Assembly (NCBI GenBank): GCA_949751835.1
Contig: CATKHK010000024.1
Location: forward strand, 427,840-491,839
Length of the DNA: 64,000 nucleotides
Direction: 5' to 3'
Source: Blepharisma japonicum
Taxonomy: Eukaryota > Ciliophora > Heterotrichea > Heterotrichida > Blepharismidae
Part shown: piece by piece, positions 1,299-37,421 of the stretch
How positions within the stretch are numbered: the first letter of the stretch is position 1
Layout: each line of letters starts with the position of its first letter
Notes under the pieces: generated by a model
The model's input: only the letters and a program-made list of their open reading frames with translations
What the model was told of the DNA's origin: nothing
The model's database searches: none
Translations under genes and position numbers: made by a program

Positions 1299-3197
1299 CT
1301 ACTGCTTTCTGTGATTTAGCACAAGTTCCCTTAGTTCAGAATTATTAGGATTGAATTTGAGTCCTTCGATATAGCACTCAAATTCTTCTTGATCTCTGCC
1401 TAATTTTCTAAGAACAGAACCTTTATTATAGTAAGCTTCAATATAATCAGGCTTGATTCTAATTAATTTGCTATAAATTTCTATTGCATCAGCATATTTT
1501 TCTAAAACTATAAGAGTAGCAGCTTTATGATAATAAGCTTTTGCAAAATAAGGGTTTATTTTGATTGCATAGCTATAGCATTCAATAGCTTCAGAATATT
1601 CGCTTAAATTATAAAGCGAATTTCCTTTATTAAAGTAAGCATCAGCATCATCAGACTCTAGCTTAATTACTTCGTTATAACATTCTATCGCATCAAAATT
1701 TCTACCTAAATTTTCAAGTGCAAAACCTTTATTATGAAATGCATCTGTATAGTCAGGATTAATCTCAATTGCTTTATTATAGCATTCTATTGCCTCAAGA
1801 TACCTACCTAAGTCGTCAAGAGCATATCCTTTATTAAAATATGCAGAAGCATCATCAGGTATGAGCTTTATTGCTTCGTCATAACATTCTATAGCTTCAA
1901 GATTTCTTCCTAATTCATTAAGAGCTGCACCTTTATTCATGAAAGCTATTGCATAATTAGGTTTGAGTGCAATTGCTTTGCTATAGCAGTCGATTGCTTC
2001 AATATTTATATCTAAATTTCTAAGAGCAACACCTTTATTATAATAAGCTTCCGCAAAATTAGGTTTAAGTTTGATTGCTTCATCAAAGCAGTCTATTGCC
2101 TCAAGATATCTGCCTATATCATTAAGTGTAAATCCTTTATTATAATAAGCATCAGGATAATCAGGCTTGAGCTCGATAGCTTCGTCATAGCATTCGATTG
2201 CTTCATAATATCTACCTAAATTCCCAAGAGTGTGTCCTTTATTAAAGTAAGCGTCAGCATAATCAGGTTTTAGCTCTATAGCCTTGTCAAAACATTCTTG
2301 TGCTTCTAAATTTTCACCTAAATTCTTAAAAGCTCGGCCTTTGTTATAGTATGCTTCAGCAAAATCTGGCTCGAGTTTGATTACTTCGTTGTAGCATTCG
2401 AGGGCTTCATAATTTCTACCTAGGTCGCCAAGGGCAGCACCTTTATTATAGTAAGCATCCGTACAGTCAGGCTTGAGTTCGATTGCTTTGTTGTAGTATT
2501 TTATTGCTTCAAGATATCTGCCTAAACTATCAAGTGCATATCCTTTATTTAAGTAAGCGCCAGCATAATCAGGTTCGAGTCTGCTTACTTCGTCATAGCA
2601 TTCAATAGCTTCAAGTATTTTTCCTAAATTTTCAAGAGCATTTCCTTTATTATCATAAGGATCAGCATAATCAGGGTCGATTTTAATAGCTTTGTTATAG
2701 CAATCAATTGCTTCTAAATTTCTACCTAAATTTTTAAGAGCATTTCCTTTAAAATTGTAAGCATTAGTATAATTAGGGTCGATTTTGATGGCTTCATCAT
2801 AGCATTCTATTGCTTCTAAATTTCTGCCTAAACTTTTAAAAGAATTTCCTTTATTAAAATGAGCAGAAGCATCGTCTAATTTGTACTTAATTGCTTCGTT
2901 GTAGCATTCTACTGATTCAAGAGTTCTTCCTAAAGCTTTGAGAGCGTTTCCTTTGTTATTGTAAGCGTGAGCATAATCTGGCTTGTACTTGATTGCTTCG
3001 TCATAGAATTCTATTGCATCAAGATATCTACCTAAATTTTTGAGAGCGTTGGCTTTATTAAAATAAATATCAGCGTCAGGTTTGAGCTTGAGTGCTTCAT
3101 TGTAATAGTCTATTGCTCTAAAGTTTCTGCCTAAATTATAAAAATGATTGCCTTCATTAAATAAACTTATATGGTCTCTGGAATGAATTAGACCCAT
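1299..3197 (-). CDS. Tetratricopeptide-repeat protein, about 18 TPRs
   Basis: A 632-aa frame is made almost wholly of canonical 34-residue TPRs with the pattern A..NKG.AL..LGR..EAIE.Y.EAI.L.P. About 18 repeats follow a 12-residue leader (MGLIHSRDHISL), and the end is a short tail without a special domain. No in-frame TGA is present, because the canonical repeat contains no Trp. TPR superhelices bind partner peptides; no partner can be named. The repeats are close to each other in DNA sequence, so recent internal amplification is likely. A decayed copy of its N-terminal half lies at 11545-11992, and a related TPR gene lies at the right edge, likewise convergent with a kelch gene. Confidence 0.9.
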   Translation of the reverse strand: MGLIHSRDHISLFNEGNHFYNLGRNFRAIDYYNEALKLKPDADIYFNKANALKNLGRYLDAIEFYDEAIKYKPDYAHAYNNKGNALKALGRTLESVECYNEAIKYKLDDASAHFNKGNSFKSLGRNLEAIECYDEAIKIDPNYTNAYNFKGNALKNLGRNLEAIDCYNKAIKIDPDYADPYDNKGNALENLGKILEAIECYDEVSRLEPDYAGAYLNKGYALDSLGRYLEAIKYYNKAIELKPDCTDAYYNKGAALGDLGRNYEALECYNEVIKLEPDFAEAYYNKGRAFKNLGENLEAQECFDKAIELKPDYADAYFNKGHTLGNLGRYYEAIECYDEAIELKPDYPDAYYNKGFTLNDIGRYLEAIDCFDEAIKLKPNFAEAYYNKGVALRNLDINIEAIDCYSKAIALKPNYAIAFMNKGAALNELGRNLEAIECYDEAIKLIPDDASAYFNKGYALDDLGRYLEAIECYNKAIEINPDYTDAFHNKGFALENLGRNFDAIECYNEVIKLESDDADAYFNKGNSLYNLSEYSEAIECYSYAIKINPYFAKAYYHKAATLIVLEKYADAIEIYSKLIRIKPDYIEAYYNKGSVLRKLGRDQEEFECYIEGLKFNPNNSELRELVLNHRKQ

Positions 3198-4282: not shown

Positions 4283-4348
4283 AATAAAAATTTAATTTGG
4301 CCTTTAGGCCGTCAAAAACAATTTAATTCTGATGATTCCTTGGGTCTT
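4283..4348. mobile_element. 66-bp insertion in gene A, TA-bounded
   Basis: Alignment with the paralogue (around 8370) shows 66 extra bases between the codons for KYS and EENYIKA. The insert has in-frame stops and a perfect 12-bp palindrome, GGCCTTTAGGCC. TA dinucleotides sit at both edges (4285-4286 and 4348-4349). Removing TA to TA (63 bp) or the full 66 bp both leave an open frame. It fits a short ciliate IES (inference). Confidence 0.55.
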
Positions 4349-5375
4349 AGAATATTTGATTAAATTAATATAAATTTTGGCAAGTTCTATATAATCACCA
4401 ATGCAATCTAATTCGTTAAATTTTATATGTCTTTGTGAAGGGTGCACAATTACGCTCATATTTAATAATTTTTCAGCTTTGCCCAAATATCTTTCTACTT
4501 GTTTGGTATCACCTAAGGCAATACAAAGCTCTGAATAAAGAATTATGAAATAAGGTTTTCTAAATTTTAGATGCTCATAATTTTGCAGTATTTTATTTAT
4601 TCTTCGCAAAATACTTCGACATTTTTCATAATCAGAAATCTCATAAAAATAACTAAAAGTGTAACTAGATGAATTCATAAAAAAATCAACTCTGCAGATA
4701 TCATAAGAATCGATAAATCCAATTGCTTCAGAAAAACAATTATGAGCATATTTTATTCGACCTTTAAGCTTATGTATTTCTCCAATGTAAGTATTCACAA
4801 TAAATAATTGATTTTTATAAACTCCAGAAAATTCACGCATTTTTTTTTTACGTCAGTTAGAGCTTCTCGTGCCTTAGAAGTTTTGAGCCTATAAAAATAA
4901 GCAATTCCAATACAAAATTTCACAAATAACAGTTCATGCCCTGAGCAGAAATTTTTTATGCTTTTAAAATATTTTGAAGCATCTTTGTAGCATTTTCGAT
5001 TTAAATAAAATAATCCAATCGCTTTATAGATTTCTTTGATTTTTGGATCAGACAGGAATCAATTGCCACACAAAGCTTTTGCATTATGAAGATACTGGTG
5101 TGCTTTTATAAAATCACCTTTTCATATATAAATTTCTACTAAATGTAAATACGATCTTGATTGGTCATAATAATTTTTCACCTTTTTTGTTGTCAAAATC
5201 CTTATATAATTTCAGAGTTTTCTTAAAGAATTATCAAAATCATTTAAAAGGAAATAAATCTCTCCAATAATCCCAGAAAATTTTCATTTCTCTTGATTTG
5301 AAATATTTTCAATCGATTTAATTATTTTCTTTAATCCATTTTTATTTCCCAGCTCATGATATGTTTTCGCCAAGC

Positions 5376-5544
5376 ACCTATAAGCTTCAGTTAATTCAAT
5401 TAAAGTCTGCTACCAGGTTGCTTCCTGCAGTTGCCCCCAAAATAACACTAGGGTATTTATGCTATTTCCTCCAGTCTTCCAAAGTGTGGCTACCTTGGCT
5501 TTGCTCACAATGAGGGCACTAGTCTTGAATTTTGGACTCAGAAG
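5376..5544. mobile_element. 169-bp insertion in gene A
   Basis: This is the same insertion as at 9398-9566, at the same codon of the paralogous gene, so it predates the duplication. The flanking direct repeat is imperfect here: 5376-5391 versus 5545-5559, one copy having lost two bases and one carrying a substitution. The interior is clearly richer in G+C than the gene and contains TAG in the host frame. Confidence 0.7.
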
Positions 5545-6570
5545 ACCTAAAGCTTCAATCAACAATTCTAGCGAATTTGGATATTGAAATTTCTTGTGAA
5601 AATAAATTGATTTCATAAACCATCTCTTTGCTTCTTTATATATTTTATTTTGACAGCACAATAATCCCAGTTCTTGGTTAATTCTAATTGCATTATCTCA
5701 ATTACCAAGTTTTCGGCTAGATTGTTCTGCATTACGAAGTTTGGCTAATTTATCTTTAAGATGAATCTTCTCTCCAGAAATTTTTAGATTCATTTCTTGA
5801 AAATATATATTAAGGTATTCATGCTTAAAATCAGTCTCGAGTAAATACTTACTAAGATTAATTCAGTCAATTAGAGAAAGGTTTGATTTCTTATTGATTA
5901 GATTTTCAATTTTAAGATTTAGGATTCTGTTATCAGTAAGGTGGTAAAATTCTTGATAACTCAGGAAATTTTGCGCGATTTCGCGTGCTATTTCTAATTC
6001 TTTTGATTCAAGTAAATTTAAAAGAAATGGGCCTATAAGTTTTGATAGAGGACATTGGTCGAAATAAGATTCATAAGGCAAGCATGAAATATATTTTTGG
6101 TCTTCAAAAACGAAATAATTGAAATTAAATAGATATGTTTTGAAATAATAGTAAAAACTTCGAAAATTTTCTTCTGAGAATTTGAAATTCTTTATATATT
6201 CCTCTACTTTATCTGGAGGTTGGATTAAAAAATACTCAGGAACTCCAAAAATAAATTTCATGGAAACATATTTCTTTTTCATCAAATATATCAAATATCC
6301 ATTGCACAAATCATGGCTTTCATGTAATCTGTCTAAATCAGAATTTTGATTAACCAATTCATCAAAATATTTGCACAATCACCGTTTTATTGAAACTATA
6401 AAATTGCGCAACATTTCTTTTGATTTTTCGTTGATTGGAATAATTATTCGCTCTAATTCAATTCTATCCTTTTTATAATGATAAAAATGTTTAATGCAAG
6501 CCTTAATCGTACCACAGCTGGAAGTGAAAATTGCATCATAAGAATCTAAAGAACAGCTAATCCTTTCCAT

Positions 6571-8102: not shown

Positions 8103-10590
8103 TTAGCCATACATTTCCAATATTTCATCAATATCTCTTAAGTACCGACTAAGGTTTTCCTCTGCAAATGAGTTATGATCAAACTTCTCGTGAATATCTA
8201 ATGACATCTGATAATAATTTTTTGACTCTTTTCATCTTTGCTGTTCATAGTATAGCCTCCCAAGTCAGTAATATATAGTTAATTTTGAGATTAAATCATT
8301 GCGTAGCTTTGTGCTAACGATTTCTTCAGAATATTTTAGTATTTTTTCTGCTTTTATATAGTTTTCCTCAGAATATTTGATTAAATTAATATAAATTTTG
8401 GCAAGTTCTATATAATCACCAATGCAATCTAATTCATTAGCTTTTATATGTCTTTGTGAAGGGTGCACAATTAGGTTAATATTTAATAAATTTTCAGCCT
8501 CACCCAAGTATTCTTCTACTTGTTTGGTTTCATCTAAGGCTATATAAAGCTCTGCTCAAAGAATTATGAAATAAGGTTTTCTAAATTTTAGATGCTCATA
8601 ATTTTGTAGTATTTCATTTATTCTCAGCAAAATACTTCCACATTTTTCATAATCAGAAATCTCATAAAAATAACTAAAAGTGTAACTAGATGAATTCATG
8701 AAAAAATCAACTCTGCAGAAATCATAAGAATCAACATATCTAATCGCTTCAGAAAAAAAATCATGAGCACATTCTATTCGACCTTCAAGCTTATGTAATT
8801 CTCCAATGTAAGCATTCACAATAAATAATTGATTTTTATAAACTTCAGAAAATTCATGCATTTTTTCTTTTACATCAGTTAGAGTTTTTAATGCCTTAGA
8901 ATTTTTGAGCCTATAAAAATAAGCAATTCCAATACAAAAATTCACAAATAACAGTTCATGCCCTGGGCAGAATTTTTGTATGCTTTTAAAACATTGTGAA
9001 GCATCTTTGTAGCATTTTCGATTTAAATAAAATACTCCAATCGCTTTATAGATTTCTTTGATTTTTGGATCAGACAGGAATCAATTGCCACACAAAGCTT
9101 TGGCATTATGAAGATGGTGGTGTGCTTTTATAAAATCACCTTTTCATATATAAATTTCTACTAAATATAAGTACGATCTTGATTGATCATAATAATTTTT
9201 CAGCTTTTTCGTTGTCGAAATCCTTATATAATCTCAGAATTTTCTTAAAGATTTATCAAAATCATTTAAAAGAAAATAAATTTCTCCAATAATCCCAGAA
9301 AATTTTCATTTCTCTTGATTTGAAATATTTTTAATCGATTTAATTATTTTCTTTAATTCTTTTTTATTTCCCAGCTCATGATATGTTTTCGCCAAACACC
9401 TATAAGCTTCAATTAATTCAATTAAAGTCAGCTACTAGGCTGCTTCCTGCAGTTGCCCCAAAAATAGCAACAGGGTATTTATACTATTTTCCTCTAGTCT
9501 TCCAATTGTGGCTACCTTGGCTTTGCTCACAATGAGGGCTCTAGTCTTGAATTTTGGATTCAGAAGACCTATAAGCTTCAATCAACAATTCTAGCGAATT
9601 TGTAAATTGAAATTTCTTGTGATAATGAATTGATTTCATAAAACATATCTCTGCTTCTTTATATATTTTATTTTGATAGTACAATAATCCCAATTCTTGG
9701 TTAATTCTAATTCCATTATCTCAATTGCCAAGTTCTTGGCTAGATTGTTCTGCATTACGAAGTTTGGTTAATTTATCATTAAGATGAATCGTCTCTCCAG
9801 AAATTTTTAGATTCATTTCTTGAAAAAATATATTAAGGTATTCATGCTTAAAATCATTCTTGAGTAAAAGCTTACTTATATCATTTCAGTCATTTAGAGA
9901 AAGGTTTAATTTCTTATTGATTTGGCTTCCAATTACAAGATTTAGGATGTTGTTATCAGTGAGGTGGTAAAATTCTTGATAACTCAGCAAATTTTGCACG
10001 ATTTCGCATGCTATTTCTAATTCTTTCGATTCAAGCGAATTTAAAAACATTGGGCCTATAAGTTTTGATAGATGACATTGGTCGAAATAAGATTCATAAG
10101 GCAAGCATGAAATATATTTTTGGTCTTCAAAAATGAAATAATTGAAATTAAATAGATAGTCTTTGAAATAATAGTAAAATTTTCGAAAATTTCCTGAGAA
10201 TTTGGAATTTCTTATATATTCCTCTACTTTATCTGGAGGTTGGATTAAAAAATACTCAGGAGCTCCAAAAAATAATTTCATGGTAATATATTCCTTATTC
10301 ATCAAATATATCAAATATCCATTGCACATATCAAGGCTTTCATTTAATCTGCCTAAATCGGAATTTTGATTAACCAATTCATCAAAATATTTGTGCAATC
10401 ACCGCTTTATTGAAACTACAAAATTAAACAAAATTTCTTTTGATTTCTTGTTGATTGGGATAATTATTCGCTCTAATTCAATTCTATTCTTTTTATAATG
10501 ATAAAAATGTTTAATGCACGCTTTAATCGTACCACAGCTGGAAGTGAAAATTGCATCATAAGAATCTAAAGAACAGCTAATCCTTTCCAT
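8103..10590 (-). CDS. Cys/His-TPR family protein A' (772 aa after insert removal)
   Basis: The start is the ATG at 10590 (MERISCSLDSYDAIF) and the stop is TAA at 8103. In-frame TGA codons (10399, 9886, 8556 and others) fall at family Trp positions. Domains: Cys/His cluster with C6, C19, C24 and H27 at the N-terminus; EYFLIQPP near residue 120; FNYFIFEDQKYI near 160; helical TPR-like repeats to the C-terminus, with the conserved QRWKES element. One 169-bp insert (9398-9566) breaks it. Removing the insert with one 16-bp repeat copy gives exactly 2319 nt with no stop, reading LELLIEAYRCLAKTY across the junction. Closest paralogue is gene A. The role is unknown; zinc binding and protein binding are inferred. 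Confidence 0.85.
9398..9566. mobile_element. 169-bp insertion with 16-bp direct repeat
   Basis: The perfect direct repeat ACCTATAAGCTTCAAT occurs at 9398-9413 and 9567-9582, spaced 169 bp. The interval is not a multiple of 3, has host-frame stops and is markedly richer in G+C than the flanks. Precise loss of one repeat unit restores the host gene. No terminal inverted repeats, poly(A) tail or coding capacity are visible. IES, or SINE/MITE with long target duplication, are both possible. Confidence 0.85.
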
Positions 10591-11540
10591 TGCTCTATAT
10601 TTAATTTTATTCCCTATTTTTTTTCTTAATATAATTTTGCACATCTGAGATCTCTATTTTGGTTATCACTAGAAATTGAATTAAGCAATAAATAATTTCT
10701 GATTTTGGCAAAATTATTTTCTTATGTTTTATTTGTTGCAGTAATTAAATTTAGATTTTTCGAGCTTGGTTATCATAAAAGTGATAAATTTGTATATAAA
10801 GATGTCTGGCTGAAGAATAAAATATGTACATAAATATCATTCATAAAATAAGTGACTTTTGAATTAATTCTTTCATTTTATGCTATTTCTATGGTATTAT
10901 TCAATTCTCAAAGTATGATATAGTCAGTAAGGTTACTTCATTGATTTCATGCAATAAAATGACAATTATTTAAGTGAGAACCTTTTAATAATGATTCGAG
11001 TTTTCAATAAAATTTCATACCAGTTTATTACAAAATGATTGTATAAAATTTTTTTGTAAATAGATGTACTGGAATAATTCTATAGCTAGCAATTACCATT
11101 CCCTAAAATTGAAAAAGCGAGAGCTCTTAAAATTTTATAGCTTCATTTAAGTTTAGATAAATATTTTTTACCTTTTTGGATTAATTTTTAAAAAATTTCC
11201 ATTTTTAATTGGATTCTACATTTTAGCCACTCTCCCTCCAAAACCTACTAAGAATAAATAGTTTATAACTAAGCTAATTATTAGAAATGGACTTATTCCA
11301 TATGATTAATTTATAATCCATTGTATGTGAATTTAACTATCTCTCATAATTATGAGCTCAAGTATCTGGTATTTTATTTTTGATGCGCATTACAAATAGC
11401 CTTGCATGAATATGAAATGCTGATATAGCTTACTATTGATGTGCTTTATTGAATTAATATATTCAATATTTGGGGTTCTGATAAAATTTGAGGAAATCAT
11501 ACGCTGCATAATGCATTCTTAATATAGTGAAGTAATTTTT
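10591..11540. other. Spacer with a 370-bp indel relative to its duplicate
   Basis: Up to about 10749 and from about 11116 this aligns with 6571-7135. The intervening stretch of about 370 bp is absent from the other copy (CAGTAATTA joins GCTCTTAAAA there). I see no gene, inverted repeat or clear direct repeat in it, so insertion here and deletion there cannot be separated. Confidence 0.5.
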
Positions 11541-12168: not shown

Positions 12169-14475
12169 TTAATTAATTTTTTTAGTAACTATAGTTTTAT
12201 ATTCGCCAATAGATAATGGGAGCTGAAAATAAAGATTTGACTCTTTTCATCTATGCTTGTTAAAATATAAAGTAGCAAGTCAAAGGAATGAAAATATTCT
12301 TGAATGGAAATCATTGAGCTGCTTCGTATTGACAATCTCCACAACATATTTTAAAATTACTTCTGCTTTTTGCCATGCCTCAGGAAAGCATATAATATAA
12401 ATTTTAGCAAGTTCTATATAATCAATCATACAATCTAATTCATTAAAGCTTATATTTTCGCAAGAATTGTGTACAATTTTGTCTATATTTAATAATTTTT
12501 CAGCCTCACTCAAGCATTCTTTTGCTTTTTTGGTTTGATTTAAAGCTATATAAAGCTCTGCTCATTGAATTTTGCAATAAGGTAATCTAAATTTTAAATG
12601 TACATTTTTTTTTAATATTTCATTTATTCTGGCCAAAATAATTCCACATTTTTCATAATCAGAAATATTATAAAAATAACTAAAAACGTAACTAGACGAA
12701 TTCATAAAAAAATCAATTTTGTGGATATCATAGGAATCAATAAATCCAATTGCTTCAGTAAAAAATTCATGAGCTATTTTTGTCTCACAGAAGAGATAGC
12801 ACAACTGTCCAATATAAGAATTCACAATAAATAATTCATTTTTATAAACTTCAGAAAATGTATCCATAACTTTTTTGGCACCAACTAGATTTTCTAATGC
12901 CTTAGAATTATTGAGTATATAAAAATATGCAATTCCAATAGAAACTTTCACAAATAACAGCTCATACCCTGAGCAGTAATTTTCTATACTCTCAAAATAT
13001 TCTAAGGCATCCTTATAGCATTTTCTATTTAAATAAAATACTCCAAATGCTTTATAGATTGCTCTGATTTTTAGATCACCTAAAGGCAAAATACCCATCA
13101 AAGATTTAGCTGTAAAAAGAAGCTGGTGAGCTTTTTTAAAGTCACCTTTAAAGATATAAATGTTTACTAAATATAAGCATATGCTTGATACTTCATAAGA
13201 ATTGCAAAATTCTCTTTGTTTGGACAATTTTATGCACATTCAAATAATTTCAAATGCTTTGTCATGATTATTTAGAAGATAATAAATTTCTCCAATAGTC
13301 GCATAAAATTTAAATTTAGCCTTAGTTAGTAAGCTTGCTTGATCAAAGATTTTAAGAATTTTCTTTAGTTTTTTTGGCTTTTTTAGGGAGTTATATGTTA
13401 ATGCCAAACCACGATAAGCTTCAATTAAAAGCTCTGAAAATTCATCATTCTTCAATTCATTATGATATTTGATTGATTTCATAAAATATCTTTTTGCATT
13501 TTTGTAATTTTGATTATTATAATGTAATCAGCCTAGCTCTTGGTTGATATTAATTGCATCATATTCATAGCCAAAGTTTCAGCAAAAGATTTTTACTCTA
13601 AGGAGGAAATTAAAGAGGCATCTAGTCATATTTTCATTTCCAAATATTGCTGAAAGTACTCTACCCAAAGAATTTTTTAATATTAATTCATTTGTTTGTG
13701 ATGATTTAATATGTAATCTTTTTCATTCTTTTAAGAGTTTACCAGAATCCTCTTTCTCTATTAACTTTTTCAGAATATTACTAAACTCCTCACAAATATA
13801 TAAAATTTCTTGAATTGAATGATGATAATAAAATTCTTTATAGCTCAGCAAACTTTGAATTAATTCATAGGCCATCTCATATTCAGAAATTTGTATAAAA
13901 TTGCAAAATAATATATAGCAAAAACTTGATAGATGAGACTCATTATAGATTGCCTTGTATTCCCATCCATGAATGTATCTTTGATCCTCGAATATAAAAT
14001 AATTGAAATCAAAGACATATGTTCTAAAAGTTTTATAAAAAGAGATCAAATCTTCTGGAGATCTAAAATTTTTTACATATTCTTCTGCTTTAAACTCGGA
14101 CTCAATTAAAAAATATTCAAAAGGGCTGAAAATTAATTTTGTAGAGACGAGTTGTTTTCTGTTCAAAAACATTAAGATTCTATCACAGTAGTTATAGGCT
14201 TCACTTATTGTATCTAATCTAGAACTGTATTCTTCTGAATCATCATGAGAGTTTGGATTGATTAAATTACTAGCATAATAGTTAAATTTCTGCTTTATTG
14301 CGAGTATAAAATTGATCAAAATTGCTTTTGATTTATTGTTGACTGGGATTTTTATTCGCTCTAGGCTGCAACCTTGATTTTTGTAATAAAAATAATGCTT
14401 TGAACAAGCAAAGTGACCGCAGCTTGATACGAAGATTGCATCAAAACAATCAAGAGAGCAACTCTCCTCTTTCAT
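12169..14475 (-). CDS. Cys/His-TPR family protein C, intact, 768 aa
   Basis: This is one continuous 2307-nt frame with seven in-frame TGA codons read as Trp (for example EWKRL at 13723, FCWNF, ELGWLH, and HRWKES near the end) and a TAA stop. The cluster is at residues 6-27 (C6, C10, C19, C24, H27) within CSLDCFDAIFVSSC and ACSKHYF. SPFEYFLIE lies at 117-125, FDFNYFIFEDQRYIHGW at about 155-171 and SEYEMAYELIQ at about 197-207. From about residue 330 the sequence is paired amphipathic helices of TPR type, with repeats such as IYKAFGVFYLN and YKNELFIVNSYIG. There is no signal peptide or membrane segment. It is a good reference copy for judging lesions in its paralogues. Function unknown. Confidence 0.88.
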
Positions 14476-14712
14476 TATTATTTATATTTTTATTTATAAA
14501 TTACGCCTTATAGATATTGGTTTTAAATAATAATTATTTTAAATTTAAATTAATAGATAGAATTTCACACAATTATAAAATTTTTCTTTTTATTAAAATT
14601 AAAATAAAAAAACAGAAAAGAATTAATTGATTATTCATTAAGTCTATCTGCGGCGCAATACATTATATTTGAGTAGTATTATTAATTAACTTGCATATTT
14701 ATTTGAAACCTT

Positions 14713-17264
14713 CTATTCAGAAAAGTTCAAATATTTCGTCAATAAAACGTCACTTGGTTTAAGATCTCTCACTGCTCTAGAGCTATGCTTAAATTGATTA
14801 TACAAATCTAATGATAGCTCACTGCAGCGTGTTGTCTCTTCCCATTTATGCTCTTTAAAATAGAGAATCCTATGACAGTAATATATAGCTAATTTGGAAA
14901 ATCGATCATTGCGTCTCTTGGTGCTAACAACCTCTTCAGCGTATTTTAAAATTTCCTGAGTCTTTTGACGATATTCATCGAAAATATTAAATAAAATGGC
15001 AAGTTCGATATAGTCACTTATACAATCTAAGTAATTGATTTTTCTAGATTTTTGAGAAGACAATAAAATGTTGTTTATATTTAATAGTTTTTCAGCATTT
15101 TTCAAACATATTATTGCTTCGTTAATTTGATTTGAAGCTATATACAGCTTTGCTCTTTGAATAAAGTAATAAGGCTTTCTAAATTTCAGATAGTCGTTAT
15201 TTTTTAATATTTTTTTTATTCTTAGAAAAACAACCCTACATTTTTCATAGTCGGATTTTCCATAAAAATATTGAAAGACAAAGCTTTGGGATTTCAAAAA
15301 AATATCAATTTTAAAAACATCATAATGGTGTATAAAATTAAAAGCTGCAATAAAGTATTTTTCTGCTATTTTTAATCTGCCTATAATATTGTATAGTTCT
15401 CCAATATACGCATTAACAATAAATAATTCATTTTTATAACTTTCAGTAAAGGCAGACATTATTTTTTTGGCTTTACTTAGGCATATCAATGCTATTTCAA
15501 ATTTCCGCATCCAAAAATAAGCAATTCCCATAGAAAGCTTAGTAAATAGTACTTCATGCTCAGAGCATTTATTATCCATGAGTTTAAAGTATTCCAAAGC
15601 CTCTTCATACCTTTGGCTGTTTAAATAAAATACTCCAAATGCTTTATAAATTTTTTGCTTATTTGGATCTGTTATAGGTAAAATGCTTAACAAAGATTTA
15701 GCATAACAAATAAATTTATGTGCTCTCATAAAATCGCCTTTTCAGGTATTAATTTCTGCTAAATAAAGCCACAAATTTGATAATTCGTAAGAGTGAATAA
15801 AAGATTTTTGCTTAGACATTTTAATGCATTTCCATATATTTTTAAGAGCTTCATCAAAATTATTTAGAAGATAATAAATCTCTCCAATAGCTGCGTAAAA
15901 TAGAAATTTATCCTTAAATGCTGCACTTTCAATAATTTGAAGAATCTCAATCACTTTTACTTTGTTCTTTAAGGCACTATATACTACTGCCAAACTACGA
16001 TAAATTTCAATTAAAAAATCTAAGAATTTATCACGAGCAACTTCTTCCTTGTATTTAATTGCGTTCATAAAACACATTATTGCATCAGTATAGTTTTTAT
16101 TATTATAATAGATTCATCCTAGCATTTGATTAAATCTAACTACATCTTTCATGAAACCACAGTTTCAGCAAGTATTCATTACTTCTATAAAGCATATAGC
16201 GAGATTGTCGATATTATCAATCACTGAAAGCAACAAATTTGAAGCATTTTTTATGATGATTTCATTTACTACTATTAATTTTTTATCTATATCATTTCAT
16301 TGCTCTAACAAGTGAGAATAATTCTTTTTATTTATAATGTTTTCAAGAATTTCCTTAAAAGTAATAGCCATTTCTACATAGTTTTTAATAATTGTAGGAT
16401 TATAATAAAGCTCTTTACAGCTCAAGACATTTTGAATTAATTCATATGCCATCTCAAGCTCAGAAAGTTGAATAAAATTCACAGCTATTATAATGAGAAA
16501 ATGTGACAAGTATGGTTGATTGTAATCGGATTTATAAGTCCAGCCGTGAATATATCTTTGTTCTTCGAGCATGAAGTAATTGTAATCAAATATATGCTTC
16601 CTCAATGATTTATGAAAACGAGCTAAATCTCACAAAGCAAATGGGATTCTGAAATCACTTGTGTGGTATCTGAATTCTTTTAGCTCTTTATAATGTATAT
16701 ATAATCCAATTCATCATGGCCCATATTTATGAGTTAAGCAGGTCGGTTAATTCTAAAAATTATATTTACTTGTCAGCCTTTTACTAACAAATAGGGATGC
16801 TTTCTCCTACTCGATGCAGGACTAAGGTTTCCTAGCGATATCCAAAAGAATTTTAAATGTATATATATCAAAGCTTTTTCTTTTGGCTCAATTAAAAAAT
16901 ACTCAAATGGGATGAAAACCGTCTTCATATTGACAAATTTCGTTTTCATCAAAAAGAATTGTAATACATCGCACATGCTTATAATCTCATTAAGTCAGTC
17001 TAAATGAAAACTATAATCCTTATTCTCTTCTAGTAGACTTTGATTAATTAACATACGAGAATAAAAGCTGGCATTTTGCTTTATTGCTCGTATAAATTTG
17101 TCTAGAATTTGTTTTGACTCATTGTTGATTGGGATCTTTATGCGTTCAAGCTTGCAGTTTTGGTTTTTATAATAAAAATAATGCTTAGGGCATGCTTTAA
17201 TCTTACCACAATCAGATATATATATTGCATCAAAAGAATCAAGAGAGCAGCTTACTCTTTTCAT
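14713..17264 (-). CDS. Cys/His-TPR family protein D (795 aa after insert removal)
   Basis: The start is MKRVSCSLDSFDAIYISDC at 17264 and the stop is TAG at 14713, the only TAG stop among the family members. The Cys/His cluster, FIPFEYFLIEP, FDYNYFMLEEQRYIHGW and LEMAYELIQN follow in order, then TPR-like helices. Trp is encoded by TGA (16995, 16297 and elsewhere) as well as TGG (HGW). A 164-bp insert interrupts the codons for ALIYIH. Excising one repeat unit gives 2388 nt with an open frame reading IYIHYKELKEF across the join. The C-terminus keeps the family element KWEETTRCSELSLDLYNQF. Function unknown. Confidence 0.85.
16692..16855. mobile_element. 164-bp insertion with 12-bp direct repeat
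   Basis: The direct repeat AATGTATATATA lies at 16692-16703 and 16856-16867, spaced 164 bp (not a multiple of 3). The insert brings TGA, TAA and TAG codons into the host frame, and precise excision restores it. The sequence is unrelated at a glance to the 169-bp element. The repeat contains TA, as expected of a TA-type IES pointer, but is much longer than two bases. Confidence 0.82.
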
Positions 17265-18199: not shown

Positions 18200-20650
18200 T
18201 TAACTTTGGATATGCATTTGATACTTTCTATTCATAAATTTCAAATATTTCTCCATTGAAACTGCCCTTGGCTTAGGATTTCTCACTGCTTTAGAGTTAT
18301 GCTTAAATTGCTTATACAAATCTAAAGATATTTGATTGCAGCGCCTTGACTTTTCCCATTTTTGCTCTTTAAAATATAGAGCTCCAAGACAGTAATATAT
18401 AGCTAATTTGGAAAATCGATCATTGAGTCTATTGGTGTTAACAACCTTTTCAGCGTATTTTAAAATACTTTTTGCCTTTTGACGATATTCATCAGAAATA
18501 TTAAATAAATTGATATAAATTTTAGCGAGTTCTATATAGTCACTAATAAGATCTAAATCATTGATTTTTATAGATTTTTGAGAATATAATAAAATGTTGT
18601 TTATATCTAATAGTTTTTCGGCTTTTCTCAAACATTTTTCTGCTTTTTGAATTTTATTTAAAGCTATATGCAGTTCTGCTTTTTGAATAAAGTAATAAGG
18701 CTTTCTAAATTTCAGATGGTTGTTATTTTTTAATATTTGATTTATTCTCAGAATAACAACTTTACATTTTGTATAGTCGGATTTTCAATAAAAATAACTA
18801 AAGACAAAGCTTTGGGATACCAAAAACATATCAATTTTAAAAATATCATAATAGTTTATAAATTTAAAAGCTACATTAAAGTATTTTTCCGCTTTTTCTA
18901 ATTTGCCTCTAAGATTGTATAATTCTCCAATATACGCATTAGCAATAAATAATTCATTTTTATAACTTTCAGTAAATTCAGACATTAGATTTTTTGCTTC
19001 AATTAGGAATTTTTTTGCTCTAAAAATTCTTAGCATTCAAAAATAAACAATTCCCATAGAAAGCTTAGTAAACAGCACTTCATGATTAGATCATTTATTT
19101 TTCATGAGTTTAAAGTTTTTTAAAGCATCCTCATATCATTGCCTGTTTAAATAAAATACTCCAAATGCTTTATAAATTTCTTGCTCATTTTGATCTGCTA
19201 TAGGTAAATTGCTAAGAAAAGATTTCGCAACGCAAAGAGATTCGTGTGCTTTTGTAAAATTGCCTTTTCAGGTATGAATTTCTGCTATATAAAGCCATAA
19301 ATTTGATAATTCATAAGCGTGCATAAGATTGTTTTGCTTAGACTTTTTTATGCATTTAAATATAATTTCATAAGCTTTATCAAAATCATTTAGAAGATAA
19401 TGAATCTCTCCAATAGTTGCCAAATATAAAAATTTATCTTTAGTTAAGGAGCATTCAAATTCAACTTCACTAAGAATTTGTTTAATCGCTTCATAATTTT
19501 TTAGAGCCCTATATGCTTTTGCCAAACAACGATAATCTCCAATTAAATATTCTAAGGAGTCATTTCAGATGCCCACCTTATATTGCCATGCAGATTCATC
19601 TAGGAGACGCTTTTTATAAAAATTAATCGATTTCATAGAGTATATTACTGATTTTTCATAGTTTTTATTGTTATAATAGAGTAATCCTAGCTCTTGATTA
19701 ATTTTATTTGCAAAACTTTTAGAACCAAACTTAGACAAGTATTCAACATCACAGAGGATTTTACAGTAATATACAGAAATATTATTGTCGATAGACATCA
19801 TATCAAGCACTCGGCCCAACCAATAATATGCCCAATAAACTAATATTTTGGATGAATGACGACGGGTTGATTTTTCGATTAAAGCAGATCTGTTTAACTT
19901 CTTTAAAAATTTTGGTAATAAACCATTAATATTTTTATTTCATTTCTCATGCAGCTGAGAGTAATTTTCTTTCTTTATAATTTTTTTTAGGATATTCCCA
20001 AATAATTTAAAAATCTTTTTCAATTTTCCAATTGAAGAGCGATCGTAAAATTCTAAATAACTTATGAGATTTTGATACAATTCATATGCCATCTCGTATT
20101 CAGATGTTTTAATAAAATCCAAAAATATTTCAACATAAATCTTTGATAGACGACGGTTTAGATTATAAGAAGACTTATAAGCCCAGCCATGTATATATTT
20201 TTGATCCTCAAGTCCAAAATAATTGAAATCAAACACATGTGCTTTAACTGCTCGACAAAGTTCTAATAAATCCACCCGATTTCAATTTTGCTTTATATAT
20301 TGTTGAGCTTTTTCCTTTGGCTGAGTTAAAAAATATTCGAAAGGGCTTAAAATGAGCTTCATATGAACAAATTTCTTTCTCTGCAAAAATATGATGATTC
20401 GGTTGCAGTAATGGAAAGCCTCATCTAATCATTTTCATTTCTTTTTATATTCTTTAAATATTCACTTTAATTTGATTAAATGAAGAAGTAAAATTTCTTT
20501 GGATTCTGTGTTTATTGGCATTTTTATACGTTCTAGTTTATGCCCTTGGGCTATATCTGAAAAATAATGCTTTGGACATGCTTTAAACTGATCATCACTG
20601 CATGTAAAGATTGCGTCTAAAAGGCAACAAGAGCAGCATACTTTTGCCAT
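18200..20650 (-). CDS. Cys/His-TPR family protein E, intact, 816 aa
   Basis: A single 2451-nt frame runs from MAKVCCSCCLLDAIF at 20650 to TAA at 18200, with many TGA-Trp codons (20462, two in KKKWKWL, 18785 in YFYWKSDY). The upstream in-frame ATG (20698) is less likely because the family starts at MAK/MKR. The N-terminal cluster differs from genes A-D: the Cys at position 19 is replaced by Asp (CSDD), while a CxxC (C6, C9) is present before the KACPKH element. FEYFLTQP, FDFNYFGLEDQKYIHGW and SEYEMAYELYQN follow. The helical region has the recurrent ATIGEIHYLLNDFDKA and NELFIANAYIGELYNL units, and it ends LKFMNRKYQMHIQS. Closest relatives are the genes at 21651-24113 and 24573-27952. Confidence 0.88.
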
Positions 20651-21650
20651 GCTTGATATTTTATTTTTATCACCTATTCTAAAATAAAAATTTTCCAATG
20701 CTGATGAATTTTACTACCTAGAAATAGCTGAAGAAAATCACTCAGAAATTAAAATTATTATAATCTATTTTTTCTAGCCATCCATGAATGTATTTTGATC
20801 TTCAATTTGAAAATAATTGAAAGAAAACAAATACACTAAGATTATGGGTTTACAACTCATATATTTTCTAGCTTTTTATAAACTTTAAGATACTTTGCAT
20901 ATTTTAAAGCTGTGCTTGGTGCTGAATTAAAAAATTCCTAAAGAGTTAAAATAAATTTAATGGAAATGAATTTCTTTGATTTTAAAAACTTTTAAGTATT
21001 ATTACAAGAAGCATCAAATTTTTTTAATTATTCATCAAAGTTTACAAGAAATTTTGGCTGCATGACTTTTAATCGTTCTACTAGAGATGCTGTTAGATGT
21101 TATTACTGGATTTTTACTTTAAAAGCTATTGATTCTTCTTTCAATGAATCACCCTTTTTATCTTCAATTTTTCAGTATCATGCCCTGTTTTCCCTATAAT
21201 GTTAACCATCTTTACTGCAAGCATAAATCAAAATTTTACTAGGGATTAGAAGTTAAAAAGTTCCTTAGTTTAAAAAGAAATTCAATTGTTATTGCGCTAG
21301 AATTTTAATCTTAAATTGGGCTTAGTGTTCATAGGCTTTAAAATTTTGCTAATAAAAAACATTAAAATATCTATTGACCATATTTTGAGGAAATTCTATA
21401 GCATTTACCTATATTTCATATGCTAGCTAGATTTAGCAAACTAATCATTGCTTGGTGAGCCAAACTATAGAGGCATACGTTTCGAATCATATAGAAACAA
21501 GTAATTAAAATATATTTTAATAAAAGATTTAGGAATTATAAAAGAGTAACCTTTAGCAACAGGAAAAAAATTGTGTACCAAAACCTCTAGTGAGCTGTTT
21601 TTCGGATTGAATATAGTATATATAATATTTAAATAATACTTTTTTTATTA
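20651..21650 (-). pseudogene. Spacer with a Cys/His-TPR relic (about 20760-21060)
   Basis: The minus strand of about 20760-21060 matches the middle region of the copy at 33257-35136: degraded equivalents of KKFISMNF, IFSPIEYFLIQPPSKALKYV and the YF..ED..YIHGW segment. Frameshifts and stops are frequent and no N- or C-terminus is present. The remaining 21061-21650 holds nothing that I can identify. Confidence 0.6.
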
Positions 21651-24113
21651 TTAATTTTTAATATTTATTTGATACTTTCTACCCATAAATTTCGAATATT
21701 TCTCCATTGAAACTGCCCATTTTTTAAAATCTCTCACTGCTTTAGAGTTATGCTTAAATTGCTTATACAAATCTAAAGATATCTGATAGTAGCGCTTTGA
21801 CTTTTCCCATTTTTGCTCTTTAAAATATAGAGCTCAAAGACAGTAATTAATAGCTAATTTCGAAAACATATCATTGAGTCTCTTGGTGTTAACAACCTTT
21901 TCAGCGTATTTTAAAATTTTTTTTGCCTTTTGACGATATTCATCAGAAGTATTAGATAAATTGATATAAACTTTAGCGAGTTCTATATAGTCACTTATGC
22001 AATCTAAATCATTGATTTTTATAGATTTTTGAGGAGTCAAAATAATTTTGTTTGCGTTCAATAACACCTCAGCTTTGCTCAAACATTTTTCTGCTTCTTT
22101 CATTTCATTTAAAGACATATGCAGCTCTGCTCATTTAATAAGGTAATAAGGCTTTCTAAATTTTATATGGCGATTAATTTTTAATATTTCATTTATTCTC
22201 AGCAAAATAAATCCGCATTTTTCATAGTCGGATTTTCAATAAAAATAACTAAAGACAAAGCTTTGGGATTTCAAAAATATATCAATATTAAGGATATCAT
22301 AGTGGTCTATAAGATCAAAAGCTTTATTAAAATATTTATCTGCTTTTTTTAAGTTGCCTTTAAGATTGTATAATTCTCCAATGTATGCATTAACAATAAA
22401 TAATTCATTTTTATAACTTTCAGTAAATTCAGACATCATTTGTTTTGCTTTTGATAGCAATTTCCATGCTCTTTTATTTAGCATTCAAAAATAAGCGATT
22501 CCCATACAAAGCTTAGCAAATAGCAGCTCATGATTAGATCATCTATCATTTTGTTCTATACATCTAAAACATTTTAGAGCCTCTTTATAGCGTTGGCTTA
22601 CTAAATAAAATACTCCAGATTTTTTATAAATTTCTTGCTCATTTGAATCTGTTGTATATAAAATGCTACACAAAGATTTGGCACAAGAAAGAGATTCATT
22701 TGCTTTTTTAAAATCGCCTTTTCAGGTATGAATTTCTGCTAAACGAAGCCGTAAATTTGATAATTCGTAAGAGTGCACACATCTTATTTTATTAGACATT
22801 CTAATGCATTTCATTATATATTTAAAAGCTCTATTGAAATTATTCAGAAGATAATGGATCTCTCCAATCATTGCATAAAATTGGAATTTAAATTGAGAAC
22901 TTGAACTTTTAAATTTGAATAGATCAAGAATTGCTCTAACCTTATCATTATTCTTTGCGGCGCTATATGCTTTTGCCAATCAAAGATAAGCCTCAATTCA
23001 ATATTCTAAAGAGTCATTTCAGAGACCCTTTCTATTCTGTCATGTGTCTTCTAAGAGATGCTCTCTATGCCAAGCAATCGATTTATTAAACCGTTCTATG
23101 GCTTTTGTATAGTTTTTACTGCCATAATAGAGTAATCCGAGCTCTTGATTAATTATATTTGCAAAATTTTTAGTAAAACTCATTCTAGAGCATTCAACCT
23201 TACAGAGGATTTTACAGTAATATTCAGAAAGATTGCTATCAATCTTCATCATAGAAATCACTTTATCCAAAAAATAACACAACCAATAATTAACATTTTT
23301 GGACGATTGATCATTTGGCTTTTTATTTGCTTTTTTATAATGTTTAATCGCAAATTTTCATCTCTCATACAGCTGAGAATAATTTTCATTCTTCAACATA
23401 ATTTCTTTGAAGATATTACCAAATCAATCAAAAATCCCTTTAAATTTTTGAATTGAAGAATGATCATAAAATTCTAAATAACTTAAGAGATTCTGATATA
23501 ATTCATATGCCATCTCGTATTCAGACATTTTAATAAAATCCAAAAATATTATACCATAAAAATCCGATAGACGGTCGCGATCGTAAGAAGACTTATAAGC
23601 CCAGCCATGTATATATTTTTGATTTTCAAATTGAAAATAATTGAAATCAAATACATGTGCTCTAATTGATGGACAAAGTTCTAAGAAACCCTCCCGATAT
23701 CAATTTAGCTTTATATATTGTTGAGCTTTTTCCTCTGGCTGAGTTAAAAAATATTCAAAAGGAGTTAAGATTAATTTCTTTAAGACTCATTTTGCTTTTA
23801 TCAAAGATAAGGCGATTCTATTGCAGTAATCAAAACCCTCATTCAATCTGTCTAGATTCTCCTGATATTCTTTAACTTTTTCATAGTTTTTTTCAATTAA
23901 ATTATCACTCCGGGCCTTAAAATTTCACTTTAATTCAACTATAAACCTATATAAAATTTCTTTTGATTTGTTGTTGATTGGGATTTTTATACGTTCTAGT
24001 TTATATCTTTGGGCTTGATCTGAGAAATAACACTTTGCGCATGCTTTAAAATTATCGTCGCTGGATGTAAAGATTGCGTCGAAAAAGCAAAGGGAGCAAC
24101 ATACTTTTGCCAT
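21651..24113 (-). CDS. Cys/His-TPR family protein F, intact, 820 aa
   Basis: One 2463-nt frame runs from MAKVCCSLCFFDAIF at 24113 to TAA at 21651, with TGA read as Trp at numerous family positions (VELKWNF at 23925, LEDTWQNRKGLWND, YFYWKSDY). The cluster again lacks C19 (SSDD) and keeps C6 and C9; the usual His after the last Cys is replaced by Cys (ACAKCYF). The middle motifs FEYFLTQP and FDFNYFQFENQKYIHGW are present. The TPR-like region has the same unit order as E and the end is MGRKYQINIKN. Spacing to gene E is about 1 kb, with its own relic between. Confidence 0.88.
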
Positions 24114-24135
24114 TCTTGATGCTTTATTTTTATAT

Positions 24136-24387
24136 CTATTTTAAAATAAAATTTGGGCAATTTGGATGAATTTTATTATTTGGGGATGATTGATAATTTG
24201 GTAGGATAAGATTATTGATTTTAAAATCTCTCATATATTTTAGCTTTTTTGATTTTTTAAGATTGCTTGCATAATTTAATTTATGAAGAGGAAATTCTTT
24301 AATGAGAAAAATAAGATTTTCACATAGATTTTTACAGCTGCATATGTGAATTGAATCAAAAGTATCAGGAAACATCAGAGTCTTCAT
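24136..24387 (-). pseudogene. N-terminal Cys/His domain fragment
   Basis: An 83-codon frame begins MKTLMFPDTFDSIHICSC and continues EFPLHKLNYAS, clearly the N-terminal domain of the subfamily at 33257-35136 (MKKLRCSFDSFDAIHICSC, EFPNHKIEY). The first Cys and the CxxH are lost, and the frame then joins a segment resembling the later PENI/LKI region and stops. It lies 22 bp upstream of gene F's start, so it could form part of F's 5' region; it is more simply a relic. Confidence 0.6.
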
Positions 24388-24572: not shown

Positions 24573-27500
24573 TTAACTTTGGATATTTATTTGAAACTTT
24601 CTATTCATGAATTTCAAATATTTCATTAATAAAACTGCCCTTGGCTTAGATTCTCTCACTGCTTTAGAGTTATGCTTAAATTGCTTATACAAATCTAAAG
24701 ATATTTGATTGCAGCGTTTTGACTCTTCCCATTTTTGCCCTTTAAAATAAAGAACTCCAAGACAGTAATATATAGCTAATTTCGAAAATCGATCATTGCA
24801 TCTCTTGGTGTTAACAACCTCTTCAGCGTATTTTAAAATTTTTTCTGCCTTTTGAAAACATTCATCAGAAATATTAAATAAATTGATGTAAATTTTAGCA
24901 AGTTCTATATAGTCACTAATGCAATCTAGATCATTGATTTTTATAGATTTTTGAGAAGACATTAAATTGTTTTTTATATTCAATAGCTCTTCAGCTTTTC
25001 TCAAACATTTTTGTGCATTTTTAATCTTATTTAAAGCTATATGCAGTTCTGCCTTTTGAATATAGTAATAAGGCGTTCTAAATTTCGCATGTTCATTATT
25101 TTCTAATATTGCATTCATTCTCAGAGAAACAACTCTACATTTTTCATAGTCAGATTTTCAATAAAAATAACTAAATACAAAACTTTGGGATGCCAAAAAA
25201 ATATCAATTTTAAAAATATCATAATAATATATAAGGTCAAAAGCTGCAGTAAAGTATTTTTCTGCTTTTTCTAATTTGCCTCTAAGATTGTATAATTCTC
25301 CAATATACGCATTAACAATAAATAATTCATTTTTATAACTTTCAGTAAAGTCAGACATAAGTTTTTTTGATCCAGTTAGAAACTTCAATGCATGTTTAAA
25401 ACGTAGCAATCAAAAATAAGTAATTCCCATAGAAAGCTGAGTAAACAGCATCTCATGCTTAGATCATTTATTTTTCATGAGTTTAAAGTATTTCAATGCC
25501 TCTTCATATCGTTGGCTTTTTAAATAAAATATTCCAAATGCTTTATAAATTTCTTGCTCATTTGGATTTTTTATAGGTAAAATACTAATCAAAGATTTAG
25601 CATTACAAAGAAATTGGTGTGCTTTTTTAAGGTCGCCTTTTCATGTATGAATTTCTGCTAAATAAATCCACAAATTTGATAAATCATAAGAATGTGTAAA
25701 ATTAGTTTCCTTAGACATTTCAATGCATTTTCATATAATTTTAGAGGCTTCATCAAAATCATTTAGAAAATAATGGATTTCTCCAATAGCTGCATAAAAT
25801 ATAAATTTATCTTCAGTTGAGGAACATTCAAATTTAATTAGATCAAGAGTTGCTCTAATCTCTTTATAATTTTTCAGGGCACTATATGATCTTGCCAAAC
25901 AAAGATAAGCTTCAATTAAATATTCTAACCTTATGGCTTCCTTTTCTTCTATCTCTCCCATCTTCATCTAGCAATCCAGAATTTCCACTTTTTCTCCTTT
26001 TTCCTGATTTTCTTATCTTTTCCTGCCTTTTCTTCCTTTTTCTGACTATTCTTTTAATTTCAGCCTTATTCTTCTTCTGCTGATCTCCTTTTTTCTTTCT
26101 AGCTTTCCATTGAGGCCTTATCTTTTCACATGCCGCGTTGCCAATTGGGCTTTCTGTTGAATTTTGATTTTTAGTAAGTTTTTTGCTTGGTCATCTGTTT
26201 TGCTTTCTGTCGAGTATTTTCTCTTGAGCTTCGACTAAATTTTCTGTTGGTTTTTCTGTCCGATTTCTGTAGAATTTTCTATTGGATTTTCTACTGGATT
26301 CTCTGTGGAGCTTTTTATTGTTTTCCTTGGTGCCATTTTTATCTTGCTAGCCCTCTGGATATTTTGCACATTTTTCCTTCTTCGCGCCTTTTTAGTCTTT
26401 CCCGCACTCTTGGCATTTCCTGTACTTTTTGCCTTCCCAATTATTCCTTTAATTTCTTCTTTCTCCTCTATCTCTTCCTTGCCAATCATTTCCTTACCTT
26501 CATCATGTCTTTCATCAAAAACCAAATCGCATGATATTGATCTAAATCCAGCAGCCACCATCAATTCTCTATCATCCAAGACATCTCAATGCTGTTGTGT
26601 AATCACCGCCCTTGTCCTTTCCTCAAAATTGTTTTTCTCCTCCAGTTCTTCTTCATAATCTATATCTTCCAACTCATTCCCTTCATCACTTTCATCAATT
26701 TCTTCATCATCTAATTCTTCCTCTTCTAAAAGTTGTAGTTCTTCTTCCAAAGTCTCAACCTCGTCCAATATTTCATCATAAAAGTCATCATACCAAAAAT
26801 CGTTTTCTTCAGGGCAAAATTCGCTGAAAGAGTCGCTGTTGCTCACATACGAAGTTGCCATATTCATGGCGATTAAAAAGTACGCTCTTTATGCAAACTA
26901 ATTGATTTATTAAAGCATTCTATTGATTTTGTATAGTTTTTACTACCATAATAGAGTAATCCTAGCTCTTGGTTAATTATCTTCTTAATACTTTTAGGAT
27001 AATACCTACTAAAGTATTCAGCCTTAGAGAGACTATTAATGTAATATTCAAAAATATTATTATCATTGATAGTCACATCGAGCACTAAATCTAAAATATA
27101 GCATAACCAATAAATTAAATTTTTGGAAGAATGAAAAGTTTGTTTTTTGGCTAAGATAAATTTTAAAAATTTTTGTCATAAATTACTTTTTTTTCTATTT
27201 CATTTCTCATATAGCTTAGAATAACTTTCTTTCCTTATAATTTTGTTTAGGATATTACTAAATAAATCAAAAATCTTCTTAAATTTTTGAATTGAAGAAT
27301 GATCATAAAATTCTAATCAACTTGAGAGATTTTGATATAATTCATATGCCATCTCGTATTCAGATATTTTAATAAAATCCAAAAATATTATAATATAAAC
27401 ATAGAATAGACGGTTCTGATTGTAAGAGGACTTATAAGTCCATCCATGCATATATTTTTGATTCTCAAATTGAAAATAATTGAAATCAAACACATGTGCT

Positions 27501-37256: not shown

Positions 37257-37421
37257 CTAAGAAAATTCGCTCTTGAAGAGGATGAATTTTGCCAAAATAA
37301 TGATTATTTGCAATCGTTTTGCTCACGCTTAAAGGAATCTAAGAAAATTCGTTCTTTGAAGAGGATGAATTTTGCCAAAATAATGATTATTTGCAATCAT
37401 TTTGCTCACTCTTAAAGAGTT
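37257..37421. repeat. 2 x 82-bp tandem repeat
   Basis: The unit begins CTAAGAAAATTCG (37257 and 37339) and contains GAAGAGGATGAATTTTGCC. The two copies differ at a few bases. No coding sense seen. Confidence 0.75.

Follow-up and report, generated by a model that had tools for sequence, protein, structure and literature searches.

The locus and the interrupted gene

The window, i.e., the whole stretch of 64,000 nucleotides analyzed here, corresponds to C24:427840-491839 in a Blepharisma japonicum assembly of 45.2 Mb and 224 contigs, and its far edge is the end of contig C24 (491,839). Most of the window is occupied by a cluster of fast-evolving TPR genes in which intact and broken members are mixed. 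The cluster runs from C24:408672 to the contig end and has relatives on contigs C90, C155, C167, C180, C211, and C218. Gene A (8103-10590, minus strand), assigned to this family via the Pfam TPR matches of its paralogue C, is interrupted by an insert. A perfect 16-bp direct repeat, ACCTATAAGCTTCAAT, is found at 9398-9413 and, in an identical copy, at 9567-9582 (spacing 169), these being the downstream and the upstream copy on the coding strand, respectively. Both copies enclose a block of 153 bp (9414-9566, minus strand) with a G+C content of 40.5%, compared to 29.2% for the kilobase 9001-10000 with the insert counted in. When 9398-9566 is deleted and TGA is read as Trp, what remains is an open frame with a length of exactly 2319 nt (stop codon counted) that encodes 772 amino acids. 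In the undeleted sequence gene A consists of two separate frames (9541-10653 and 8103-9431), and its downstream half is an open frame of 442 codons that starts inside the insert. The first-pass annotation had described a perfect 16-bp repeat around a G+C-richer block within a coding region, and a stop-free frame of 2319 nt upon removal of one repeat plus the block; both descriptions are confirmed, the latter for A under TGA=Trp.

Thirteen pairs of non-simple direct repeats of at least 16 bp with a spacing of 40-700 bp are present in the window. All except the pair in A are spaced by multiples of 102 or 83, the former reflecting TPR arrays and the latter a tandem pair. Tandem 102-bp repeats are located at 1395-3137 and 62900-63469, the first array comprising 17 copies that code for TPR motifs, while two 83-bp tandem copies with 94% matches lie at 37257-37417. 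We also scanned 261 kb (the window and 20 sampled loci) for repeat pairs at which a deletion would fuse two frames of at least 100 codons. Eight such pairs have repeats of at least 10 bp, with lengths of 16 (the pair in A), 14, 12, and five times 10 bp. The 14-bp pair, in sampled locus L017, was rejected as another insert flanked by a target-site duplication (TSD): its spacing of 195 is a multiple of 3 and it lies, by eye, in a repetitive stretch. Long direct repeats occur in two further sampled loci, L011 (1513/1650, 19 bp, spacing 137) and L029 (8736/8918, 26 bp, spacing 182).

Genome character and genetic code

The genome seems Blepharisma-like, based on TGA in tubulins, candidate introns of 15 nt and, weakly, one CCCTAACA unit. 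TGA occurs inside tubulin matches of the same genome, which supports TGA=Trp. Of the six contig starts seen, that of contig C4 alone has the CCCTAACA unit, and two units in tandem were present at no locus. In B. stoltei, UGA encodes Trp, the telomere repeats are CCCTAACA in permuted form, and introns of 15 and 16 bp predominate (PMC9942806). For the internal eliminated sequences (IESs) of that species, PMC9942856 gives 39,799 reconstructed elements in 41 Mb, with an intragenic share of about 70% and a median length of 255 bp; 30,212 of the 39,799 are bounded by TA-containing terminal direct repeats, most commonly TA, TAT/ATA, and TATA, and excision is described as a continuum.

The assembly looks somatic. 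A germline resembling that of B. stoltei should have around one IES in every kb, if that density may be transferred, whereas long ORFs of the window are uninterrupted. Seven uninterrupted ORFs of 770-915 amino acids are present in the window (17 kb), and 17 of the 33 tubulin matches lie in frames of at least 445 amino acids. A 401-base search of the 45.2-Mb assembly found no insert-free version of A or B.

The same insert in a broken paralogue

An orthologous insertion had been reported in a paralogue at 5376-5559, and it is indeed there. In this paralogue B, the block (5392-5544, minus strand; 43.1% GC) is 91% identical to that of A. The flanking repeat copies are ACCTATAAGCTTCAGT at 5376-5391, with one substitution relative to A, and ACCTAAAGCTTCAAT at 5545-5559, with one base lost. 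Both genes differ at 178 of 2313 aligned sites (7.7%). B also has an extra in-frame segment of 66 nt near CDS 2051 (approximately 4284-4349) that is absent from A.

The claim that the gene has been kept open on both sides of the insert stands for A, which is intact, but not for B. The latter carries three frameshifts, i.e., the 1-nt loss in a repeat copy and 1-nt losses at CDS ~1555 and ~2258, and two stops at CDS 1865 and 2282. All of these frame-breaking changes and stops are situated at the insert or downstream of it; the upstream half has a single in-frame gain of 3 nt and otherwise keeps its frame. A GT-AG join in B has the dinucleotides and loses the reading frame, and both TA-to-TA joins between the repeats are out of frame. 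The sole in-frame join at the site takes out 168 nt and retains the intact copy of the repeat, which leaves 608 codons open (stop to stop) until the later frameshift; over seven removal offsets tried, the longest open run was 609. Because the 168-nt join stays in frame, the site in B is by itself no proof of lost removal. The far end of B is broken whichever join is used at the site.

Empty sites and the age of the insertion

A genome search with a stretch of 156 amino acids of paralogue C around the site gave at least 31 matches. These represent at least 29 family loci, two of which are filled (A and B), at least 22 empty and at least five uninformative, as the match ends short of the site or starts at it (C24:427548, C24:476073, C167:3986, C218:2414, and C211:276). 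The site is hence empty in at least 22 of the at least 24 loci that cover it and, among the matches listed, filled only in A and B. Each of the latter is matched in two pieces broken at the site, whereas the at least 22 other loci cross it in one piece. Four empty neighbors, all on the minus strand, were aligned with A and B: paralogue C (12169-14481), with a continuous frame of 770 amino acids and Pfam TPR matches, paralogues D (18200-20710) and E (21651-24140), each with a continuous frame, and paralogue F (14713-16746), with an open frame of 677 amino acids that lacks the N-terminal part. The insert limits in A match the empty site of these paralogues. GAAGCTTAT, or a sequence close to it, is present once in C, D, E, and F, and twice in A and B, on either side of the block, i.e., a single target in the empty homologues and a duplicated one around the insert, as in a target-site-duplicating insertion.

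Because repeats flank the block and the paralogue sites are empty, the alignment indicates a single gain with target-site duplication in the common ancestor of A and B, and not a loss elsewhere. The identity between both blocks (91%) is close to that between the genes, and the insert therefore dates back to the duplication or to a time somewhat before it. The repeat copies of A are still identical and the two changes in B are B's own, suggesting that the insertion did not long precede the duplication. The earlier argument that an insert shared by two diverged paralogues is hardly very young is borne out to the extent that the insertion predates the A/B duplication.

Other members of the array are interrupted as well. 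In paralogue G, a split near the equivalent place is due to approximately 0.93 kb of foreign DNA (25940-26890) that is purine-rich on the coding strand and encodes one acidic frame and one basic low-complexity frame. By eye, this DNA replaces rather than duplicates the site, pointing to an event separate from the A/B insert. In paralogue H, the interruption (40100-40457) consists of about 350 bp with an elevated G+C content (39%) and falls between the residues that correspond to YWLCYF and VISMMK in paralogue E; inspection by eye revealed no clear direct repeat around it.

Nature of the inserted block

Elsewhere in the genome, the block of A was found only in B. A DNA search of the genome with E-values up to 10 yielded no third copy. 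A 19-base block pattern with up to three mismatches hit 14 places, with exact matches only in A and B and three mismatches in each of the other 12, and no copy was present in 26 sampled loci (219 kb; best E-value 0.3). The frame of 43 codons within the insert is open in A and B alike; a genome search with its 43 residues gave no copy beyond these two genes, and the absence of a Pfam or PDB match with E-values up to 10 led us to reject a captured protein domain. A structured RNA was rejected as well: there is no Rfam match at the insert with E-values up to 5 (the one match listed, E-value 4.3, falls in the flank outside the insert), and the predicted fold is no stronger than that of mononucleotide shuffles (z from -1.4 to +0.2). 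A 30-base pattern matched 0 viral contigs, and a 19-base pattern matched three bacterial contigs.

The block ends bear no resemblance to terminal inverted repeats, as judged by eye from CTTCTGAATCC at one end and the reverse complement of the other, TAATTCAATTAAAG, and an inverted-repeat scan detected no inverted pair at the block ends. The terminal inverted repeats of a MITE or another DNA transposon are thus missing. A mobile family was rejected because the block is found only in A and B, and an introner family, with similar copies in different genes, does not fit for the same reason. With neither a terminal inverted repeat nor a further copy found, the insert looks like the product of a one-off event and less like part of a mobile family; its long TSD, combined with the absence of inverted repeats, suggests target-primed insertion or filler DNA from repair.

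Fate of the insert

The earlier alternative that the insert is either removed by programmed DNA elimination or very young retains its core, an insertion with a long TSD, which turns out to be old. It leaves out two further possibilities, namely a gene truncated by the insert and RNA splicing via the AG|GT of the target site. Regular programmed elimination is unlikely, because an assembly of somatic appearance contains the insert in both copies and an insert-free copy was not found. An IES is by definition absent from the mature somatic genome; this insert is assembled in A and B. It does share with IESs a terminal direct repeat that contains TA, as ACCTATAAGCTTCAAT does, and the remark in the first-pass annotation that this repeat far exceeds the usual TA of ciliate IESs is accurate (16 bp versus TA, TAT/ATA, and TATA as the commonest ones).

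Partial retention would reconcile an IES with the assembly: a PiggyBac-type excisase would cut at the TA of the repeat in some chromosomes, and the assembler would have kept the retained form. The TA within the 16-bp repeat is compatible with this proposal, as are the mostly TA-containing repeats, the intragenic share of about 70% and the continuum of excision in the parts of PMC9942856 concerned with B. stoltei. We nevertheless regard it as improbable, given that the insert is assembled in both A and B with no insert-free version in the 45.2-Mb assembly (401-base search), that the seven uninterrupted ORFs of the window lend the assembly its somatic look, that the commonest IES repeats in that source are far shorter than 16 bp, and that the two TA-to-TA joins of B lose the frame.

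The coding capacity of A and B also bears on removal. Gene A has neither a stop nor a frameshift in 2319 nt despite approximately 76 substitutions assigned to its lineage. In a neutral simulation, the probability that the gene stays free of stops is 0.0165 over its full length, with values of 0.16 upstream and 0.11 downstream of the insert, and the open frame of A is thus a suggestive, but not a strong, sign of removal. The two stops of B are fewer than the neutral fraction (about 5% of ~102 substitutions) predicts. The dN/dS ratio between A and B amounts to 0.83, compared to 0.61 for L49-M53 and 0.70 for D-E, the two intact pairs nearest to each other, and 0.33-0.60 for the other 26 pairs. 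Differences between A and B are nearly equally distributed over codon positions 1, 2, and 3 (61, 58, and 59), which indicates little constraint. By half, dN/dS is 0.98 upstream and 0.73 downstream; polarized by C, with small counts, it is 1.52 upstream and 1.1 downstream in A, and 2.2 and 0.6 in B. Relaxation is no greater downstream than upstream, even in B, whose downstream half would be dead under a truncation reading; this counts against that reading in its simplest form. Faster decay of B than of A downstream of the insert was suggested with C as sole outgroup (22 versus 43, binomial P = 0.013), but it was discarded as the other outgroups disagree (D: 31 versus 39, P = 0.40; E: 32 versus 38, P = 0.55; majority outgroup: 30 versus 38, Fisher P = 0.47).

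Splicing would equally leave a full-length product of A. The coding-strand AG|GT of the target was duplicated along with the rest of the site, so that the insert starts with GT and ends with AG in both A and B. The candidate intron of 169 nt is located at 9400-9568 on the minus strand (coding strand ...TTATAG|GTCTTC ... TTATAG|GTGTTT...). According to this explanation, the main rival to an unremoved insertion and in our view unlikely, the TSD would have created an intron that is spliced in A, giving the full 772 amino acids, and that was lost in B by frameshifts. The intact frame of A on both sides of the insert and its correct frame after removal agree with it, and the 3' end TTATAG resembles the TAG end of four of the eight 15-nt intron candidates. 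An AGGT target is, moreover, mildly surprising, being present in only 1.5% of the 16-mers of seven intact family ORFs (3.9% from the base composition of A). Any exact TSD insertion, on the other hand, restores the frame automatically, as in A, and the GT-AG join of B loses the frame. The insert also departs in length and 5' splice site from the introns of this genome as far as a small sample predicted from sequence represents them: a scan for introns of 15-16 nt in 261 kb gave eight candidates, all of 15 nt and seven of them starting with GTA, compared to 169 nt and GTC for the insert. In B. stoltei, too, lengths of 15 and 16 bp predominate among introns (PMC9942806). The GT...AG length histogram from 10 to 30 nt reaches five at 15 nt and at most two elsewhere; the peak is modest, because a mock pair (GA...AT) reaches four at one length. 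Frame-joining GT...AG spans of 100-300 nt show no excess (213, versus 1478, 595, and 235 for mock dinucleotide pairs) in a crude scan that counts overlapping alternatives, includes A and B and compares pairs of different base frequency, and thus do not suggest that long introns exist as a class. That a 169-nt GT-AG intron was born by TSD beside at least 22 empty paralogues, and that a spliceosome working on 15-nt introns still defines so long an intron, is unlikely in our judgment.

Direct-repeat-flanked unconventional introns are known as a class, and the insert might be removed from RNA as one of these or by self-splicing; alternatively, the two halves of A might be translated separately. 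The direct repeats at the insert ends and the downstream frame of 442 codons beginning within the insert can be cited in favor. Since nothing in Rfam, group I/II introns included, matches the insert at E-values up to 5 and its fold does not rise above shuffles, these options are very improbable.

The best reading, which we consider somewhat more likely than not, is that the insertion is not removed and cuts short TPR genes that evolve fast. One fragment of 153 bp was inserted at a staggered break in the common ancestor of A and B, leaving a TSD of 16 bp, presumably in a one-off event such as target-primed insertion or the filling of a repaired break. Gene and insert were then duplicated to give rise to A and B. 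Given the somatic character of the assembly, the insert is expected to stay in somatic DNA and most likely to be kept in RNA too. The proteins would be truncated, in the case of A at about residue 349. B has gained frameshifts and stops at and past the insert, and A would be the younger or slower-decaying truncated copy in a tandem family of fast turnover. By eye, the array members G and H also look broken by other insertions, which is consistent with truncation; the AGGT in the target site, with the intron-like GT...AG ends it creates, argues against it.

If the insert is not removed, the case is that of a commonplace insertion into a gene array in decay and has little consequence. If it were spliced, it would represent an intron gain with the empty sites alongside, in a lineage of tiny introns, and would test whether a spliceosome specialized in 15 nt can use an intron ten times longer. 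Partial excision as DNA would make it an IES that leaks into the soma and whose boundary repeat is unusually long.

Comparison with known systems

Similar to the IESs of Blepharisma (Seah et al., 2023; PMC9942856), the insert is short and intragenic, has a TA-containing repeat and restores the frame of A upon exact removal. It differs from them in being present in a somatic-type assembly in both paralogues, in its much longer repeat and in the lack of an inverted repeat. With introners and other TSD-born introns as treated in the main text of Gozashti et al. (2022; PMC9860276), where the word "ciliate" has 0 occurrences, it has in common that the insertion site can supply both splice dinucleotides and that removal leaves the mRNA length unchanged. 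Unlike the introners of that text, it stems from a single event (versus five to more than 2000 copies per genome), has a TSD of 16 bp (versus 3-9 bp in previously characterized families) and a G+C content above that of the gene, whereas introners are generally below exons.

The tiny spliceosomal introns of heterotrichs share the GT...AG ends and the TAG-type 3' end with the insert, but they measure 15 nt and mostly have GTA at the 5' end, compared to 169 nt and GTC here. Target-primed (LINE) type insertions carry long target-site duplications. Non-LTR retrotransposons have been reported in the Blepharisma somatic genome (PMC9942856). The insert departs from the LINE type in that there is no visible poly-A tail, only a doubled TTAATTGAA running into the repeat, and in that neither a coding match nor a second independent copy was found; yet its 16-bp TSD, the absence of a terminal inverted repeat and the precise empty site are all as in LINE-type insertions.
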